From: Phycisphaerae bacterium | GTDB taxonomy: Bacteria; Planctomycetota; Phycisphaerae; UBA1845 | DNA length: 64,000 bases | NCBI GenBank assembly: GCA_029260055.1 | Contig: JAJDDX010000046.1 | Coordinates: forward strand, 24,675-88,674 | Reading direction: 5' to 3' | Shown here: positions 1 to 54,200 of the stretch, piece by piece | Layout: the number at the start of each line of letters is the position of its first letter | Position numbering within the stretch: position 1 is the stretch's first letter | The notes under the pieces: model-generated | Database searches by the model: none | What the model saw: only the letters and a program-made list of their open reading frames with translations | Told to the model about the DNA's origin: nothing | Program-made: the position numbers and the translations under genes

Positions 1-363
1 CAGTACCTGAAAGTCGTCTACGTCAAGGACGGCGAGGCCGCTCACGTGCGGTTGATCGAACCCGGTATCGCGGACAGCCGGCGCGTCCAGGTGTGCAGCG
101 GCTTGGAGATGGACGAGACGGTCATCATCGGCCCGTACCGAAGCCTCGATCAACTCAAGGACGGCAAGAAAGTCGCCCTGGCGGAGGAAGAGAAGAAGGA
201 AGGCGCTCCTGGCGACGAGGCAAAGCCCGAGGAGGGCGCCACGGATGAGCAACTCGCCGAGGACGAGACGGGCGAGGCGGACGGCGACGGATCGTCCAAG
301 GCCGGTGACTCGAACGATGAACCGAACAATGAGCAGACCGTAGCCGCGAGCACTACACCGTGA
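1..363 (+). CDS. Efflux RND/MacA-type periplasmic adaptor subunit, C-terminal end (partial)
   Basis: The reading frame is open from base 1, so the start lies outside the window; about 120 residues are visible. The visible part fits the last beta-rich (membrane-proximal) domain of a HlyD/MacA-family adaptor ([18 protein letters not shown], then [19 protein letters not shown]). It is followed by a long acidic, Glu/Asp/Gly-rich tail (roughly the last 60 residues) that looks disordered. The stop overlaps the GTG start of the ATPase gene (GTGA), so translation is probably coupled. With the following ATPase and permeases it would make a MacAB-like exporter in which the adaptor links the inner membrane permease to an outer membrane channel. 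The family call rests on weak similarity plus strong context; the substrate is unknown. Confidence 0.75.
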
Positions 364-1103
364 CAGCAGACGCACAAACCGTCATTGAACTTGCCGGGGT
401 CGAGAAGATCTACCGCGTCGGCACCGAGATCGTGCGCGCGCTGCGCGGCGTATCGCTGACGATCGATCAAAACGAATTCGTCGCCATCATGGGACCGAGC
501 GGGTCCGGCAAGAGCACGCTGATGAATATCGTCGGGTGCCTCGACGTGCCGACGAACGGTAAATACTACCTCCGAGGCACGGATGTCTCGAAGCTCTCGC
601 AATCCAAGCTCGCGCGCATTCGCGGCCGGCAGATCGGCTTCGTGTTTCAGACGTTCGAGCTGCTCGCGCGCACGACGGCACTCAAGAACGTTGAGTTGCC
701 CTTGATGTATTCTCAGACGAGGCGCAAGCGGCAGCACGCCATGGACGCGCTCAAGCGCGTCGGCCTCGAAGATCGCGCGACGCACAGACCCAATCAACTG
801 TCCGGCGGGCAGAAACAGCGCGTGGCGATCGCTCGTGCGCTCGCGCAGGAACCGGATATCATCCTCGCGGACGAACCGACGGGTAACCTCGACTCGCAGA
901 CCGGCGAGGAGATCATGGAGATCTTCGATACGCTGCACGCCGAGGGACAGACGATTATCGTCGTCACGCACGAAGAGGAGATCGCGGCTCGGTGCAAGCG
1001 GGTCATTCGCTTGCGCGACGGCTTGATCGCTTCCGACGAGCGCACGGAGGCCGTGACGTTCGTACCCATCCAGGAGCCGGCGCGAAGCGTCGGTGTGTCA
1101 TGA
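360..1103 (+). CDS. ABC transporter ATP-binding protein (MacB/LolD type)
   Basis: A 247-residue cytoplasmic ATPase of the MacB/LolD class. It shows the Walker A motif GPSGSGKST (about residues 42-50), the Q-loop region [12 protein letters not shown], the signature [15 protein letters not shown], Walker [13 protein letters not shown] and the switch histidine in VVTHE. The GTG start overlaps the adaptor stop and the stop overlaps the next permease start (ATGA), so adaptor, ATPase and first permease form a tightly coupled operon. In this family the ATPase is either separate, as here, or fused to the permease (E. coli MacB). It would power mechanotransmission-type export of a peptide, antibiotic or lipoprotein; the substrate cannot be read from the sequence. 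Confidence 0.95.
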
Positions 1104-2398
1104 TCCGGTGGATTCCCAGCTTCGCTCGTTGGAGCCTTCGCGTTCCTATGCGTCTGGTGCGTTGGTGCTTCGGCTCGATTGGGCGCCAGGCGCAGAACGT
1201 CAGCACCGCGCTGGTGCAGATCTGGGCCAACAAGGGGCGGTCGATCCTCACGACGCTGGGTATCATCATCGCGGTTACGTCCATTATTACGGTCATCTCG
1301 TTCGTGCAGGGCTTCGGTAATTACATCACGGGTATGGTCAGCGGCTACGGCACCAAGTTCATGGTTGTGCGGCCTGACTACCCGCGCGGGTTTCGCGGCG
1401 CCGGTCTCGGGCGCGTGACGCTCGACATGCCGGACATCGATGCGGTGCGCACGGAATGCTCCAAGATCCACCGGATGACTCCGTTTATCTACACGCATAA
1501 CGGCGAAGTTACCTTCGGACGCGAGAAGGCGGACGACATCCCCGTCCGTGGTGTGACCGAACATTACCAGACGATTCGAAACTTCTTCGTGGATGCGGGG
1601 CGCTTCTTCGGGCCCATCGATGTGGCCAACGGCGCGAATGTCGTCGTGCTCGGCCGAACCGTGCTCGAGCGGCTCCAGTGTGATGACTCGATCGTCGGAG
1701 AACATGTCTACCTCGATAACGAACGCTTCTTGGTGGTAGGACTGCTGGAGAAGAAAGGAAGCCTCTTCGGCGAGGATCAGGACGAGACGGTCATGATCCC
1801 CTATACCACGGCACTGAACCTCTACCCCGAGCGGCGCGATGCGGTCTTCTTCCTGGCTGAAGCAGCCAACGAAGATGAGATCGACGCCGCCGCCGCCCAG
1901 ATCACGCGCGTACTTCGCCGTCGGCACGGACTTCAGCCGGGCCAGCCGAACGATTTTCACATCGATCGGCAGGACCAGGCGGTCCGTGACTTCAAGCAAG
2001 TGCGCGACGTGGCGGGTGGCATTCTCGCAGGGATCGTCAGCATTTCGCTGCTGGTCGGCGGGATCGGCATCATGAACGTCATGCTCGTGTCAGTCACCGA
2101 GCGGACGCGAGAGATCGGTCTGCGCAAGAGCGTGGGCGGGCGCCGCCGCGACATCATGCTCCAGTTCCTGACCGAGGCCGTCGTGCTCTGCACGCTTGGA
2201 GGGATCGTCGGACTCGTGCTGGGCTATGGCATCACCTATGTGGCGTCGTTGCACCCGCAGATGGTGGAGATCACCGTGCCGCTATGGTCGGTGGGGCTGG
2301 CGTTGGGGTTCTCCGCGGGAGCGGGGATCGTCTTCGGCATCATTCCGGCGTTCAAGGCGGCCATTTTGCACCCGATCGATGCACTGAGACATGAGTAG
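1100..2398 (+). CDS. MacB-like ABC transporter permease (first of a tandem pair)
   Basis: A 432-residue permease. I chose the ATG at 1100, which overlaps the ATPase stop (ATGA); the track's upstream start at 992 lies inside the ATPase gene. It has an N-terminal transmembrane helix after about residue 45 ([18 protein letters not shown]), a periplasmic MacB_PCD-type core, then three C-terminal helices of the FtsX domain, beginning with [19 protein letters not shown]. The cytoplasmic turn carries the highly conserved [20 protein letters not shown], typical of MacB coupling helices. The next gene is a clear paralogue of it. With one ATPase for two permeases, the working transporter could be a heterodimer. 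Confidence 0.93.
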
Positions 2399-19364: not shown

Positions 19365-19404
19365 GGGTGCCACGGACAAGCAGCAGCTTGTCCGTGTCGT
19401 CCCG
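19365..19404. repeat. REP element upstream of the RAYT gene
   Basis: GGGTGC, then a perfect 10-base stem CACGGACAAG / CTTGTCCGTG (19371-19396) around the loop CAGCAG. Its near-identical mirror copy lies just after the RAYT gene at 20105-20136. Related copies lie near 51405, 51662, 51711 and 55946. Confidence 0.9.
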
Positions 19405-19495: not shown

Positions 19496-20098
19496 ATGTC
19501 CGGCATTCGAACTCGACACCGAAAGCTGCGTCGTCCATGGAACGAGGCAGGCCATGCCCACGAACTGACCTTCTCCTGTAACGGTCGGCTGCCCTTGCTG
19601 GCCAACGACCGGGTGCGCCAATGGCTGCTCGACGCCATGGACACAGCGAGGAGGCGCTGGGACTTCGAATTGTGGGCCTACGTCATCATGCCCGAGCATG
19701 TCCATATGCTCGTATACCCACGGCGCCCGCATTACGAAGTCGCGGCCTTCCTGAAGTCCGTCAAGCAGTCCGTTGCCAGGAAAGCGATTTCGTGGCTGCG
19801 GCAGAGCAGTTCGGGCCTCCTTGGAAAACTGCGGATCGTTCGAGCCGGCCGCGTTGAGCATAGGTTCTGGCTGGAAGGCGGTGGTTACGATCGGAACATC
19901 TTCGATGAGGCGACGGCCTGGACGTGTGTTGAGTACATTCACCGGAATCCGGTACGCCGCGGTCTCGTCGACGCCCCGTCCGACTGGCTCTGGTCGAGTG
20001 CGAGGTGGTATGAGCAGCTCGATGGTGTGAAGCTCGAAATGGACGACTGCCCGCCGCCGGTACGAAACCCGATCACCGGCTGCCGACCTTCGCGCTAG
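19496..20098 (+). CDS. REP-associated tyrosine transposase (RAYT)
   Basis: A 200-residue single-strand DNA transposase of the Y1/HUH superfamily. The HUH metal-binding motif is intact (MPEHVHMLVYP). The catalytic tyrosine is in the expected place in VEYIHRNPVRRGLV, the motif equivalent to E. coli TnpA-REP. The end WLWSSARWY matches the family's WSS signature. Unlike IS200, RAYTs stay in one or a few copies and are thought to move or maintain REP hairpins. This gene is flanked at about 90 and 7 bases by two REP elements in opposite orientation, the arrangement expected of a REP/RAYT pair. Confidence 0.92.
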   Translation: MSGIRTRHRKLRRPWNEAGHAHELTFSCNGRLPLLANDRVRQWLLDAMDTARRRWDFELWAYVIMPEHVHMLVYPRRPHYEVAAFLKSVKQSVARKAISWLRQSSSGLLGKLRIVRAGRVEHRFWLEGGGYDRNIFDEATAWTCVEYIHRNPVRRGLVDAPSDWLWSSARWYEQLDGVKLEMDDCPPPVRNPITGCRPSR

Positions 20099-20104
20099 CC
20101 CCGG

Positions 20105-20136
20105 CACGGACAAGCTGCTGCTTGTCCGTGGCACCC
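20105..20136. repeat. REP element downstream of the RAYT gene (inverted copy)
   Basis: CACGGACAAG-CTGCTG-CTTGTCCGTG then GCACCC. Read on the minus strand, this and its flank match the upstream REP over about 36 bases with one base of difference in length. The two form an inverted pair around the transposase gene. It lies between the convergent ends of RAYT and lpxI. Confidence 0.9.
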
Positions 20137-21015: not shown

Positions 21016-21074
21016 CCCGAGCCGCACGCTTTAGCCTGCGCGGACAGCCGCGCGGGCTAAAGCCCACGGCTCAG
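21016..21074. repeat. Inverted pair of the CCGCGGGCTTCAGCCCGCGCGG family between lpxD and lpxI
   Basis: Two copies lie head to head with a four-base gap: CCCGAGCCGCACGCTTTAGC and onward (21016-21043), then CCGCGCGGGCTAAAGCCCAC and onward (21048-21074). They resemble the 28-base unit at 2425 and 25835. The pair nearly fills the 99-base space between lpxD and lpxI and could form a long hairpin in the mRNA. Confidence 0.8.
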
Positions 21075-24994: not shown

Positions 24995-26638
24995 ATGTGC
25001 CCACAAGACCAACCCACATCGCCGCGTGACGACAACCCGCCCGCCTCGGACGCACTCCCTTCGAACGCGAATACGGCGGCCGCTGCTTCGACATCGGGTG
25101 GTTCTGCTTCCGTCCCCCCTTACCAAGGGGGGAAAGAGGGGGGTGGGGCGGAGTCCTCGGCGCAACGGCCACCAACGCGGCGTGCACTTGACTGGATGCT
25201 GCCCGCAGCCGGCTGGGTGATGCTCGGTTGGTTTGTGTTCACAGCCGCACGTCTTCACCACGTATCGACTGACGTGCGTTCGTTCCAGGTAGCGTACCTG
25301 ATCGCGTTCGCGGGTTATGGCCTTCTTGTGTGGGCAGTGCTCCGGGCAACGGCAAAGAAGTTCCGGATTCCGCTCACTGGCCGGCGCCATGCCTCTCCCC
25401 TTGCCAAGGGGGGAAAGAGGGGGGTCGAGCGATCCGCGCTTGCGCCCAACGACGTGGCCCGCGCCAGCCGATCGTGGGTGTGGTGGCTGATCGCCTGCGC
25501 GGTCATCCGAATCCCCCTGCTCGGTACGCAACCGTCCGACGACCTGCACCGCTACGTGTGGGAGGGCAAGGTTCAACTCGAGCACGTGAACCCGTTCGAT
25601 ACGCCGCCCGATGACCCGTCCTTGGCCCATATGCGTGATGCCAACTGGGCGCAGATCAACCATCCCGACTATCCGGCGATCTACCCGCCGCTCGCGCAGA
25701 TGGAGTTCGCAGCCATAGCGGCTGTGCACCCGTCGGTGTTCGCGTTCAAACTCGTCCACGTCGTGTGGGACGTACTGACCATCGCCGTGCTGGGCGCATG
25801 CGTGGCGAGGCTCGGGAAGACTGCGGTAAGGCACCCCGAGCCGCGGGCTTCAGCCCGCGCGGACACGCGGACGGCGAACGCTCTCGATCTACGACCACAC
25901 GCGGCGGTTCTTTACGGCCTTTGTCCGCTCGTGCTTACCTCGTTCGGGATCGACGGACACGTAGACAGCCTGATGTTGCTACTGATGGCGCTTATGGTCT
26001 GGGCGATGCTGGCTGGGCGTTGGGCGTGGGCGGGCGTCGCACTCGGTGGAGCCATCGCCACGAAGCTCATGCCGCTGATCCTCTTGCCGTGGCTCATCCT
26101 GCGAAAACCGCGTGCAGCCATCGCGGCGATGGCCGTCGTGGCTCTATGCTACCTGCCCTACATCGACGCGGGCACGATGCTCTTTTCCAGCCTGAGGCGT
26201 TTCGGCACCGGTAGCGAGTTCTTCAGCCTCACCGGTGTGCTCGGTGTCGCCGGCACGCTGCGCGACCTGCACCCTCTTGCCATGCCCGGGCTGCTCGGTG
26301 TCATCATCGTGGCGCTCGCGATACGCTCGGACGATTTCACGAAGTACGCCTCCCGCGCGTGGACGGCCACGTTGATGCTCTTGCCCGTCGTGCATTTCTG
26401 GTATCTGACCTGGGTGATCCTGTTTCTACCGTTGCGCATACGCTTCGCCTGGCTCGCAGCCGGCGCTGCCTTCGTCTGCTATTTCGAGGCGGAACAGCAA
26501 CGAACATTGACAGGCCACTGGAACATGCCAACCTGGGCTCCGGTGGCAGTGTGGACGGTGTTCGTCGTAGGCGCCGTCGGCGATGCAGTCATCCGATGGA
26601 CGCGCGGGCGGCACGGCACACGACTCGATACCGCGTAA
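24995..26638 (+). CDS. Multi-pass GT-C-like mannosyltransferase carrying in-frame repeat insertions
   Basis: A 547-residue membrane protein with roughly ten helices. The acidic loop after a helix (SDDLHRYVWEGKVQLEHVNP) is typical of polyprenyl-phosphate-sugar-dependent GT-C enzymes of the MptA/DUF2029 type. WYLTWVILFLPL near the C-terminus fits as well. Three stretches look inserted: VPPYQGGKEGGG (25114-25143), SPLAKGGKRGV (25391-25425) and HPEPRASARADTRT (25832-25873). Each is encoded by a palindromic repeat, and each falls in a hydrophilic loop. The reading frame is kept through all three. The start at 24995 gives a long hydrophilic N-terminus; ATG 25195 would give a shorter form. Confidence 0.75.
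   Translation: MCPQDQPTSPRDDNPPASDALPSNANTAAAASTSGGSASVPPYQGGKEGGGAESSAQRPPTRRALDWMLPAAGWVMLGWFVFTAARLHHVSTDVRSFQVAYLIAFAGYGLLVWAVLRATAKKFRIPLTGRRHASPLAKGGKRGVERSALAPNDVARASRSWVWWLIACAVIRIPLLGTQPSDDLHRYVWEGKVQLEHVNPFDTPPDDPSLAHMRDANWAQINHPDYPAIYPPLAQMEFAAIAAVHPSVFAFKLVHVVWDVLTIAVLGACVARLGKTAVRHPEPRASARADTRTANALDLRPHAAVLYGLCPLVLTSFGIDGHVDSLMLLLMALMVWAMLAGRWAWAGVALGGAIATKLMPLILLPWLILRKPRAAIAAMAVVALCYLPYIDAGTMLFSSLRRFGTGSEFFSLTGVLGVAGTLRDLHPLAMPGLLGVIIVALAIRSDDFTKYASRAWTATLMLLPVVHFWYLTWVILFLPLRIRFAWLAAGAAFVCYFEAEQQRTLTGHWNMPTWAPVAVWTVFVVGAVGDAVIRWTRGRHGTRLDTA
25114..25143. repeat. CCCCCCTT hairpin repeat inside the GT-C gene, copy 1
   Basis: CCCCCCTT-ACC-AAGGGGGG, an 8-base perfect hairpin, followed by AAAGAGGGGGG. 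A second copy with the same 3' tail is at 25394-25424. Both are read in frame within the membrane protein gene. Confidence 0.85.
25394..25424. repeat. CCCCCCTT hairpin repeat inside the GT-C gene, copy 2
   Basis: CTCCCCTT-GCC-AAGGGGGG then AAAGAGGGGGG. It matches copy 1 from CCCCTT onward except for one loop base. It encodes SPLAKGGKRGV in a loop of the transporter-like protein. Confidence 0.85.
25835..25862. repeat. CCGCGGGCTTCAGCCCGCGCGG family repeat inside the GT-C gene
   Basis: These 28 bases are identical to the intergenic copy at 2425-2452. Here they are translated (PEPRASAR) in a loop between two helices of the glycosyltransferase. Confidence 0.88.
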
Positions 26639-48700: not shown

Positions 48701-49318
48701 CGCAGCCGAAGCCCACGCCTGCCACGGCGCCGGCGCAAGCCGTAATGCCGACCCGGCTGCCGGATCGTCCGGGTGCCCCACCTCCTCCGGAGGTGGGGGA
48801 GGCGATGATCACCGTCCGTTGGCCAATCGCGGGGCTCCGGCACGCTTGGCATCGTCTCCCCCACGTCCCAAGGACATGGGCCACCCGCCGAACCGTTTCG
48901 GATGCCATCACGACCACGGATATGCCTTGAAAACCGCGTGTTGCGGCCCTCAGGCACGCGATTTGCCAGCGTTCTCCTGTCCGTGGCGGGGACGGTCTGC
49001 GCGTGCGGTGGCTGCTCCTTCGCCTCAGAAGTGCCGAGATGGGCCGCGGCTTCGACTCGGCGCTTCATTTCGTGTATATCTGCGGGTCCCGGTGCATGGC
49101 CGCCCTGTCGGCGGTCTAGAGTTTGGCGCGAGCCGCCGGGGACCCGTTTTCGTTCTTCTCGCGCAATACGTGACTAGAACCTCGGCAGAGCCGCCGAGGG
49201 CGACGAGCCACGCTTGGGCCGTCGTCTTGGGCCCGATGGTCCGCCCATCGAAGGCTACGCCGGGTTTGGCTGACATCACTGGCATTAGCGTACGCAAGCG
49301 ACAGAAAGGTGGAGACCC
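48701..49318. other. Intergenic region before the thiolase-like gene
   Basis: This gap holds the composite repeat at 48771-48890; the remaining 430 bases up to the thiolase-like gene show no gene. The Shine-Dalgarno for that gene is AAGGTGGAG at 49306-49314. Confidence 0.55.
48771..48890. repeat. Composite double-palindrome element (MITE-like), copy 1
   Basis: The left palindrome CCCACCTCCTCCGGAGGTGGG is joined to GGCGATGATCACCG, then an unrelated middle, ATCGTCTCCCCCA, and the right palindrome-like GTCCCAAGGACATGGG with GCCACCCGCC. A second copy with the same outer parts but a different middle is at 51464-51590. The left and right parts share an inverted segment (GGCGATGAT and ATCGTC), so the element may fold as one long hairpin. 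Confidence 0.85.
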
Positions 49319-51291: not shown

Positions 51292-51763
51292 GCATGCACT
51301 GACGGGAAAGCGTAGCGTCGCCCTTCATGGGCGGCGCCGGCGCAAGCGAACGACAGTCAAGGGCGGGCTCCGACGCGCGGAGTCCGCCCCTGTTCGTTCG
51401 GTCCGGGTGGCATGGGCAAGCAGCAGCTTGCGCGTGTGGCTCGGCGATGCCGCATCCACTCAGGGCGGGTGGCCCACCTCCTCCGGAGGTGGGGAAGGCG
51501 ATGATCACCACCGCTGGCGTCGCCAAATGGTGGAGCTGTTGAACGGTCGTTATCGTCTCCCCCATGTCCAAAGGACATGGGCCACCCGCCAATCGTGACC
51601 ACAGCCGCCAACCGACCGCCAATCAGCGAACGCCCGACGGGCTGGAATTGTCGGACGCTCTCAAGCAGCAGCTTGTCCGTGCGACTCCGCAGGGAAGGTC
51701 GCCCGCAAAAGGTGGCATGGGCAAGCAGCAGCTTACCCGTGTGGCACGGCAATGCCCGTTCCG
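51292..51763. repeat. Repeat-filled convergent intergenic region (REP and MITE-like elements)
   Basis: Between the convergent ends of the DUF35 gene and mqnE lie at least four elements: REP at 51405-51443 (GGCAAGCAGCAGCTTGCGC core), the composite element at 51464-51590, a partial REP at 51662-51685, and a REP at 51711-51750 (GGCAAGCAGCAGCTTACCC core). No gene is visible. Dense repeats at the 3' ends of two facing genes fit insertion into a neutral site or use as terminators. Confidence 0.8.
51464..51590. repeat. Composite double-palindrome element (MITE-like), copy 2
   Basis: The ends are inverted repeats: GGCGGGTGGCCCACCTCC at the left; the right end on the other strand reads GGCGGGTGGCCCATGTCC (16 of 18 match). 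Inner parts (GGAGGTGGGG, GGCGATGATCACC, ATCGTCTCCCCCA) match copy 1 at 48771; the 45-base middle differs. The length is 127 bases. Confidence 0.88.
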
Positions 51764-53008: not shown

Positions 53009-53389
53009 GGTACAAGCATCCGCGGCAGGTCTCGTTCCTCGACGCTGCCCTACAGACTCCGTACGTCAGGGCGGGATTATAGCGGCGATCCACCGATCGG
53101 CACCGCGCGAGCTTTCAAAAGTTGTGGCAGGATCACGAGCCCTGCGCCTCGTCGCCTATTGGCTGCCCATCCGAACCGCGCCCGTAAGGAAGCGGCTCTA
53201 ACCAAACATGGCGCGGCTAAATCCCGGTAGGGCACGGTCGAGGAACGAAACCTGCCGTGACGACCCGGCCCGTGGATACCGGTAGAGCGGCTGTCTTTGA
53301 GCTGCCTGTGTGTTGCGAAGACGGAACGAAGGTAGAATCCGGCCTGATGCGTGGAATGCTCTGGCGCTGATAAGAACGAGGCTCGGACT
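53009..53389. repeat. Inverted pair of GCAGGTCTCGTTCCTCGAC repeats between mqnE and the next gene
   Basis: Copy 1 (53021-53053, CGCGGCAGGTCTCGTTCC and onward, ending CCCTAC) and an inverted copy (53227-53259, GTAGGGCACGGTCGAGGAAC and onward) face each other across 173 bases. A third, direct copy lies at 54163-54195, just before the M3 peptidase gene's 3' end. The first copy would be in the mqnE 5' leader. Confidence 0.8.
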
Positions 53390-54103
53390 GTGACTGCTGA
53401 TCTGCCGGATATTCCGGTTTGCCTTGGCTGTGGCTACAGCCTGCGCGGAGTTCCTGAGCTACGATGCCCCGAATGCGGCCGAACGTTCGACCCCGGCGAT
53501 CCCGTCACATACCGGACAAATGACTCGCCGCTCTGGTTGTGGCGCGCCAGAGCGCCATCCGCTTGGGTCGTCGCGATCGTCATGGTCATGGCCGGGTTGG
53601 CTCTCGGGTATGTCAGCAATCCATCCATGGCGGGTGAGTGCGCGATGGTCTACGGTCTGCTACCGGCGTTTTGCCTGTGCGTTGACTACGTTGGGCGCGC
53701 GGTATGCTGCCGGCGCCTTCGGGGCCGGCTACCACCGTACGAAACAAATGCGTCGAGACGACGCCGGTGGCGATGGGGTGTTCTGCCGTTGGCCGCGATG
53801 CTTGTCGTTACGGGAATGGTGACGAACTGGCCGATGCAGATCCGGTTCCACTTCAGCCTGCCCGCGTTCGAACAGGTTGCTCAGGGCATTCGGAGCGGAG
53901 CGACCGTCAACACCGGTCCGCAGTGGATCGGACTCTACTATGTCGAGCGGATCGTGCCGGGGCGCGATGAGGCCATCGGTTTTGCCACGGGAACGGATGT
54001 CTACGACACGGTGTTCTACTATGAACTGCCGCCCAGCTATCTCATCGGTCCGGATCGACCCCTAACACGGGACTGGTGCGCTGCCGACAGGCGGCCAAGA
54101 TGA
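53390..54103 (+). CDS. Zinc-ribbon membrane protein (CGYSLRG type)
   Basis: A 237-residue protein if it starts at GTG 53390. It has an N-terminal zinc ribbon (CLGCGYSLRGV, then RCPECGRTFDP), another planctomycete-style ribbon distinct from the CGYDLTGN type. Helices follow (AWVVAIVMVMAGLALGYV, CAMVYGLLPAFCLCVDYV and GVLPLAAMLVVTGMVTNW), then a C-terminal extracytoplasmic part. I have no function for it. It stands alone between two repeat copies. Confidence 0.65.
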   Translation: MTADLPDIPVCLGCGYSLRGVPELRCPECGRTFDPGDPVTYRTNDSPLWLWRARAPSAWVVAIVMVMAGLALGYVSNPSMAGECAMVYGLLPAFCLCVDYVGRAVCCRRLRGRLPPYETNASRRRRWRWGVLPLAAMLVVTGMVTNWPMQIRFHFSLPAFEQVAQGIRSGATVNTGPQWIGLYYVERIVPGRDEAIGFATGTDVYDTVFYYELPPSYLIGPDRPLTRDWCAADRRPR

Positions 54104-54162
54104 AGCGCCTGTCCAGTGCGGGCAAAAGAACACGAAGCGATTTCGACACGCGCATCCACATG

Positions 54163-54195
54163 CGCGGCAGGTCTCGTTCCTCGACGTTGACCTAC
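54163..54195. repeat. GCAGGTCTCGTTCCTCGAC repeat, copy 3
   Basis: CGCGGCAGGTCTCGTTCCTC and onward, the same orientation as copy 1 at 53021 with two differences. It lies between the convergent zinc-ribbon gene and the M3 peptidase gene. Confidence 0.85.
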
Positions 54196-54200
54196 ATGGC

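Follow-up and report, generated by a model that had tools for sequence, protein, structure and literature searches.

A dispersed double-palindrome element from an uncultured Planctomycetota order, very probably a REPIN with its own RAYT

Two copies of a composite repeat and their genomic family

The window analyzed here, a 64,000-nucleotide stretch of a Phycisphaerae genome, carries two copies of a composite palindromic element, 2.7 kb apart and in the same orientation, flanking a two-gene unit. Copy 1 occupies positions 48771-48886 and copy 2 positions 51467-51587. The left REP unit of copy 1 (48771..48807, + strand) consists of GTGC, where most copies have GTGG, a 9-bp stem CCCACCTCC/GGAGGTGGG and the tail GGAGGCGATG. 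It is followed by a core, or spacer (48808..48849, +), of a subfamily with a 6-bp deletion, and by a right REP unit in the opposite orientation (48850..48886, - strand), which consists of CATCGTCTCC, the stem CCCACGTCC/GGACATGGG and CCACCC. Copy 2 comprises a left unit (51467..51503, +), a core of a different subfamily with a 1-nt deletion and a small hairpin CCACC..TGGC/GCCA..GGTGG (51504..51550, +), and an opposed right unit (51551..51587, -).

The first-pass annotation had described two elements with shared ends and differing middles. The shared ends were confirmed at both sites: the left unit, GGCGATGATCACC, the ATCGTCTCCCCCA motif and the right palindrome are common to the two copies, with 35/37 identical columns in the left unit and 34/37 in the right unit. 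The differing middle stood in part. We observed identity in only 28/48 aligned core columns, and the two cores belong to distinct subfamilies; however, they are not unrelated sequence, as one homologous core is present in all copies. The subfamily of copy 1 has three members (copy 1, one on C16 and one at C183:17713), which have the 6-bp deletion in common and are 93-95% identical in the core. Because copy 2 belongs to another subfamily, the pair noticed at first pass represents two distant core subfamilies, and its members would therefore have arrived independently.

A blastn search of the same genome (7.63 Mb in 500 contigs, the sole genome of its genus in our comparison) returned 44 near-full copies, spread over dozens of contigs, and 2 partial ones, so the earlier proviso that only two copies might exist does not apply. 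The pattern of a single unit, allowing ≤1 mismatch, had 90 matches in the genome and none when read backwards; about 17 of the 90 units lay outside any full doublet. Inverted REP units with a short spacer are thus over-represented as doublets, as in REPINs.

A repeat measures 115-123 bp: its 42-48 bp core lies between two hairpin units of 37 nt that are inverted relative to each other. Each unit follows the plan GTGG, 9-bp stem, GGAGnCGATG, and the tag lies 0 nt from the stem, which closes a 2-3 nt loop, as in GT[AG]G REPs. Left units read GGGTGG-CCCACCTCC-TCY-GGAGGTGGG-GGAGGCGATG and right units, in the opposite orientation, CATCGTCTCC-CCCATGTCC-AAA-GGACATGGG-CCACCC; they are ~80% alike once one is reversed, and their stems differ slightly in sequence. 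The doublet is therefore head-to-head inverted with its tags outside, and its terminal inverted repeats span ~37-46 nt with 76-80% complementarity. In 9/42 copies, the base pair that involves the left tag's last G was lost. Folded as single-stranded DNA, the element forms either a long hairpin or a cloverleaf made up of the two unit hairpins plus an inner stem (z -4.2 to -4.7), and the clover is the minimum free energy structure of copy 2.

When copies were aligned within the genome, mean pairwise identity was 69% in the core, 90% in the left unit and 95% in the right unit, a spacer less conserved than its REPs as is typical of REPINs. Past the GGnC/GnCC adjoining the ends, the flanks were random. 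By these alignments, the core within this genome is a moderately diverged homologous spacer, not a free cassette. We also found no match to the core alone elsewhere in the genome by blastn, and so saw no sign that cores are gene-derived or independently mobile, as had been suggested; a gene origin was rejected on the same ground. Between genera the picture is different. Elsewhere in the family, other genera have end units that are 90-100% identical but a core that differs, and the description of conserved ends around a variable middle therefore holds there, in contrast to the homologous cores within the genome. Cores of two relatives (G340 and G065) appeared partly alike by eye, one with an insert, which suggests that cores may be inherited for some time and later replaced.

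The copies favor intergenic positions. We scored 40/43 as extragenic, compared with 18% of random stretches, which is the usual location of REPINs; 3/43 overlapped a coding-like ORF, compared with 82% of random stretches. Neighboring genes were unidirectional for 21 copies, convergent for 10 and divergent for 3.

Several local arrangements were also seen. At C30:7675-7950, a whole element and its left flank are duplicated in tandem with a period of 153 bp. Half units (GGGTGGCCCAnnTCC), repeated head to tail every ~21-23 bp, adjoin full units at C183:177-256, C263:1911-1999 and C204:6757-6862. Elsewhere in the window, a 38-nt repeat (53017-53054 and 54159-54196) flanks the ORF at 53351-54103, and other dispersed repeats include the palindrome CCGCGGGCTTCAGCCCGCGCGG and TCCCCCCTTACCAAGGGGGGAAAGAGGGGGG, at positions 2425-2460, 21016-21051 and 25835-25870, and 25113-25150 and 25394-25431.

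RAYT genes and their flanking units

By searching the genome with the RAYT protein of a relative (G239), we uncovered a gene for a REP-associated tyrosine transposase (RAYT) at C183:531-1109 that encodes 193 aa from an ATG with zero stops and is 78% identical to the query. The Pfam Y1_Tnp profile missed this gene (18.6 bits vs a cut-off of 23), and none of the four genes that the profile did find in this genome was flanked by the GTGG unit. The NCBIfam profile NF047646 (REP_Tyr_transpos) matched the protein at 93.5 bits (cut-off 80) and also matched 26/26 relatives (relatives at E 0.001), in which the active-site residues H61/H63 of the HUH motif, Y148 and N152 are invariant. The gene thus combines the HUH motif, catalytic tyrosine, asparagine following it and family-profile score above cut-off that define RAYT/TnpA-REP proteins. 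An AlphaFold model (pLDDT 91.5) had as its closest structure, and the protein as its best PDB match, TnpA-REP bound to a REP hairpin (4ER8; sequence E 4.1e-7, fold E 6.9e-10, 22% identity in the fold alignment).

As in REPIN systems, the same REP units lie on either side of the gene. Upstream are two half units (from C183 position 177), followed by a unit at 219-256 (+), a unit at 385-427 (-) and a degenerate unit at 476-515 (+); directly downstream is another unit, near 1131-1175 (-). The cognate transposase that the first-pass annotation proposed to look for was therefore found between the element's own units, and its comparison with BIMEs was borne out both by this arrangement and by the inverted pairing of REP units. 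The half-unit array at C183:177-256 lies upstream of this gene.

The linkage of RAYT and unit recurs in six genomes, this one and five relatives (G188, G022, whose gene has a stop codon, G239, G208 and G319). The RAYTs of the five relatives form one group in the tree with 100/99 support, apart from the other RAYTs of the genome under study. Across the order, most RAYTs of the clade are flanked on both sides by GGGTG[GC]CCCA-stem-TGGGG, with stems that differ by lineage. We compared 14 units of the order and observed that all nine pairs hold in each, though positions 5-9 vary; upper-stem cells paired in 70/70 cases, vs 46 on average and at most 57 after shuffling. Read from these aligned units, the stems change across the order via compensatory pairs.

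Among 397 sampled genomes of the class, units were present in 18/27 genomes with a RAYT, compared with 20/370 others. At the family level, co-occurrence of RAYT and element gave counts of 16/13/3/14 (p = 0.016), a figure weakened by kinship among the genomes and by the scoring of only 2 DNA candidates per genome; 13 family genomes had units, with no RAYT of the C183 clade detected. Exact-pattern matches in named genomes fell in 13 MAG records of Planctomycetota, one of them labelled Phycisphaerae, and in a single record labelled Gemmatimonadota. The latter record (L257, CP070666.1) contains an exact right-type unit, by transfer or through a wrong label.

Other RAYTs were encountered along the way. 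A second, different RAYT gene lies in the window at 19496-20098 (200 aa; NF047646 92 bits over the part scanned) and sits inside a 97% inverted REP pair, GGGTGCCACGGACAAGCAGCAGCTTGTCCGTG, at 19365-19399 and 20102-20136; palindromes related to GGGTGCCACGGACAAGCAGCAGCTTGTCCGTG surround copy 2 at 51405-51451, 51662-51687 and 51710-51756. An HUH/Y1_Tnp (RAYT-like) domain is in frame within a 1360-aa valyl-tRNA synthetase frame of the same genome (G000:C344 39320-43403, L239:321-4403; Pfam 30.8 bits), and the domain also occurs in purH frames of G331, G230 and G340 (L302, L303 and L304), apparently at the same place. Some of these RAYT-like in-frame domains have REP-derived GTGFQPV / RLKTGAT stretches at their borders. 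It would be unusual for housekeeping proteins to carry a transposase domain. In G319 (L300, on C149), a 1583-aa frame has a PNHVH HUH domain amid repeated GTAFQAV...HGQDARAT stretches, which look like translated palindromic repeats.

Alternative explanations and a proposed mechanism

We considered whether the repeats could be a structured RNA or terminator family, spread by recombination and kept for a role in transcripts such as bidirectional termination or mRNA stability. The RNA fold is strong (z -5.3 to -7.2), and most copies lie downstream of genes, in unidirectional or convergent settings, both of which speak for such a family. However, an Rfam scan of the window gave no family at gathering score, and compensatory stem change within the genome did not rise above shuffles, the stems varying too little there. 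Nor does this explanation account for a RAYT gene that sits between the same units, and we regard it as very unlikely; a secondary transcript role alongside mobility is possible.

A shade less likely again is a MITE of a classical DDE transposon, with inverted ends, a target-site duplication and an interior made variable via deletion derivatives. The terminal inverted repeats are as expected of a MITE, as is a dispersed, non-coding element. However, target-site duplications, for which the first-pass annotation had recommended a check, were not above shuffled flanks (2-5 bp, offsets 0-2). Together with the hairpin within each end and the HUH/tyrosine type of the linked enzyme, this leaves the earlier likeness to a MITE unsupported in the usual DDE sense, and no core resembling a transposon interior was found.

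It is barely credible that the core is a small protein-coding cassette. An ATG after the GGAGG-rich left unit does open a frame of ~29 residues (MLTNRWRRKMAGLRNTRHRLPHVQRTWAT) in many copies, and the frame, preceded by a Shine-Dalgarno-like GGAGG, stays open in most of them. Nevertheless, codon position 1 was the most variable (0.24) and position 3 was not raised (0.18), there are 1-nt indels and stop codons, some copies lack the ATG, the frame continues into unrelated flanking sequence, and the core is replaced in other genera; we rejected coding on the substitution pattern, indels and stops. Finally, a single palindrome near 50 kb of the window might have been duplicated locally or by chance, and the proximity, shared orientation and flanking position of the two copies would suit this reading. 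It is refuted by the 44 copies on dozens of contigs, the 90 vs 0 unit-pattern matches and the different subfamilies of the two copies.

We therefore conclude, with high though not complete confidence, that the element is a REPIN (a BIME-like REP dimer), non-autonomous and copied in trans by the RAYT at C183:531-1109. Movement of this REPIN, RAYT binding, cutting and single-strand transposition are proposed here by analogy with related families. When a site becomes single-stranded, each unit would fold into a hairpin and the whole element into a cloverleaf or a long hairpin. The HUH/tyrosine RAYT would bind the unit hairpins and cut beside the tags, and the single-stranded element would be joined into another intergenic place without target duplication. 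We propose that the RAYT recognizes only the end units, and that the core would therefore be free to drift and to be replaced from one lineage to the next, whereas the ends hardly change.

Comparison with known REP systems

REPIN/RAYT systems have mostly been described from Proteobacteria. The system reported here is of this known kind, and the family is new, in the under-studied phylum Planctomycetota; we found no description of this REP family in this lineage in the literature searched, the coverage of which was partial. A REPIN is thus placed, together with its enzyme, in an order of uncultured Planctomycetota. Across genera of the order, the RAYT lineage changes in step with the REP stem while cores are swapped, and this series of genera is natural material for testing REP recognition by RAYTs. 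The variable-core composite element of the window becomes ordinary mobile repeat biology.

The traits of the element match those of published REPs and REPINs (PMC3116915, PMC3733652, PMC8266576), and every feature of REPINs and GTGG REPs that can be read from sequence is present. In the published anatomy (PMC3116915), a REPIN pairs two inverted REPs around a spacer that is less well conserved, can fold either as a hairpin or as a clover, and comes with a RAYT that carries the same REPs. Similar to the ~70-120 bp doublets of Pseudomonas fluorescens SBW25 (Bertels and Rainey 2011, PMC3116915), the element described here is an extragenic inverted pair with a less conserved spacer; it too has alternative long-hairpin and clover folds, and it shares its REPs with a RAYT encoded nearby. 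Unlike them, it has an unrelated stem sequence, belongs to another phylum, numbers only ~45 doublets and is a heterodimer, its two units differing in stem.

GT[AG]G REPs are defined by tags 0-2 nt from the stem (PMC6006769); the superfamily has stems of 7-20 bp, loops of 2-5 nt and a GTAG or GTGG tag, and head-to-head dimers tend toward conserved spacers (PMC3733652). Our units resemble these REPs and dimers (Di Nocera 2013, PMC3733652; PMC6006769) in having a 9-bp stem with GTGG immediately on its 5' side and a loop of 3 nt, tags outside, a conserved head-to-head spacer and mainly unidirectional or convergent gene settings. They differ in using GTGG, where GTAG is the commoner tag, and in an additional conserved inner tail, GGAGnCGATG.

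There is also overlap with TIRtrons and TIRYT genes (Di Nocera 2013, PMC3733652), in which a RAYT is bracketed by inverted repeats that also form genomic dimers and clusters, because our units lie as inverted repeats on either side of the RAYT and the TIRtron motif GGGGWSAS occurs in the right-type unit (GGGGAGAC). The motif fits some relatives as well; the left-type unit, however, departs from it at one place. Unlike TIRtron repeats, our units are full hairpins with a GTGG tag, and REP and TIR features therefore coincide in them.

TnpA-REP uses its tyrosine to cut single-stranded REP DNA (PMC8266576). The E. coli BIME/REPtron system (4ER8, PMC8266576) shares with ours paired inverted REPs, a single-copy HUH enzyme and an equivalently placed tyrosine and asparagine; unlike the REPs of that system, our stem is perfect and lacks the bulge required by the E. 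coli enzyme.

Lastly, REPs of the CGTC superfamily have a CGTC tag, a stem that starts with AT, a 4-5 nt loop and no linked transposase (PMC3733652). Our right unit, read from inside, similarly begins with CATCGTC and ends with CCA. However, the motif across our units is CGNC, the stem starts with CCC, the loop has 2-3 nt and a RAYT is associated, and we rejected membership on the stem start, the loop and the linked RAYT. With GTGG outside and CGnC inside, there is a small chance that this RAYT clade links GT[AG]G REPs and the transposase-less CGTC REPs through an enzyme that reads the inner motif too; if so, CGTC-like repeats would gain a dedicated transposase.
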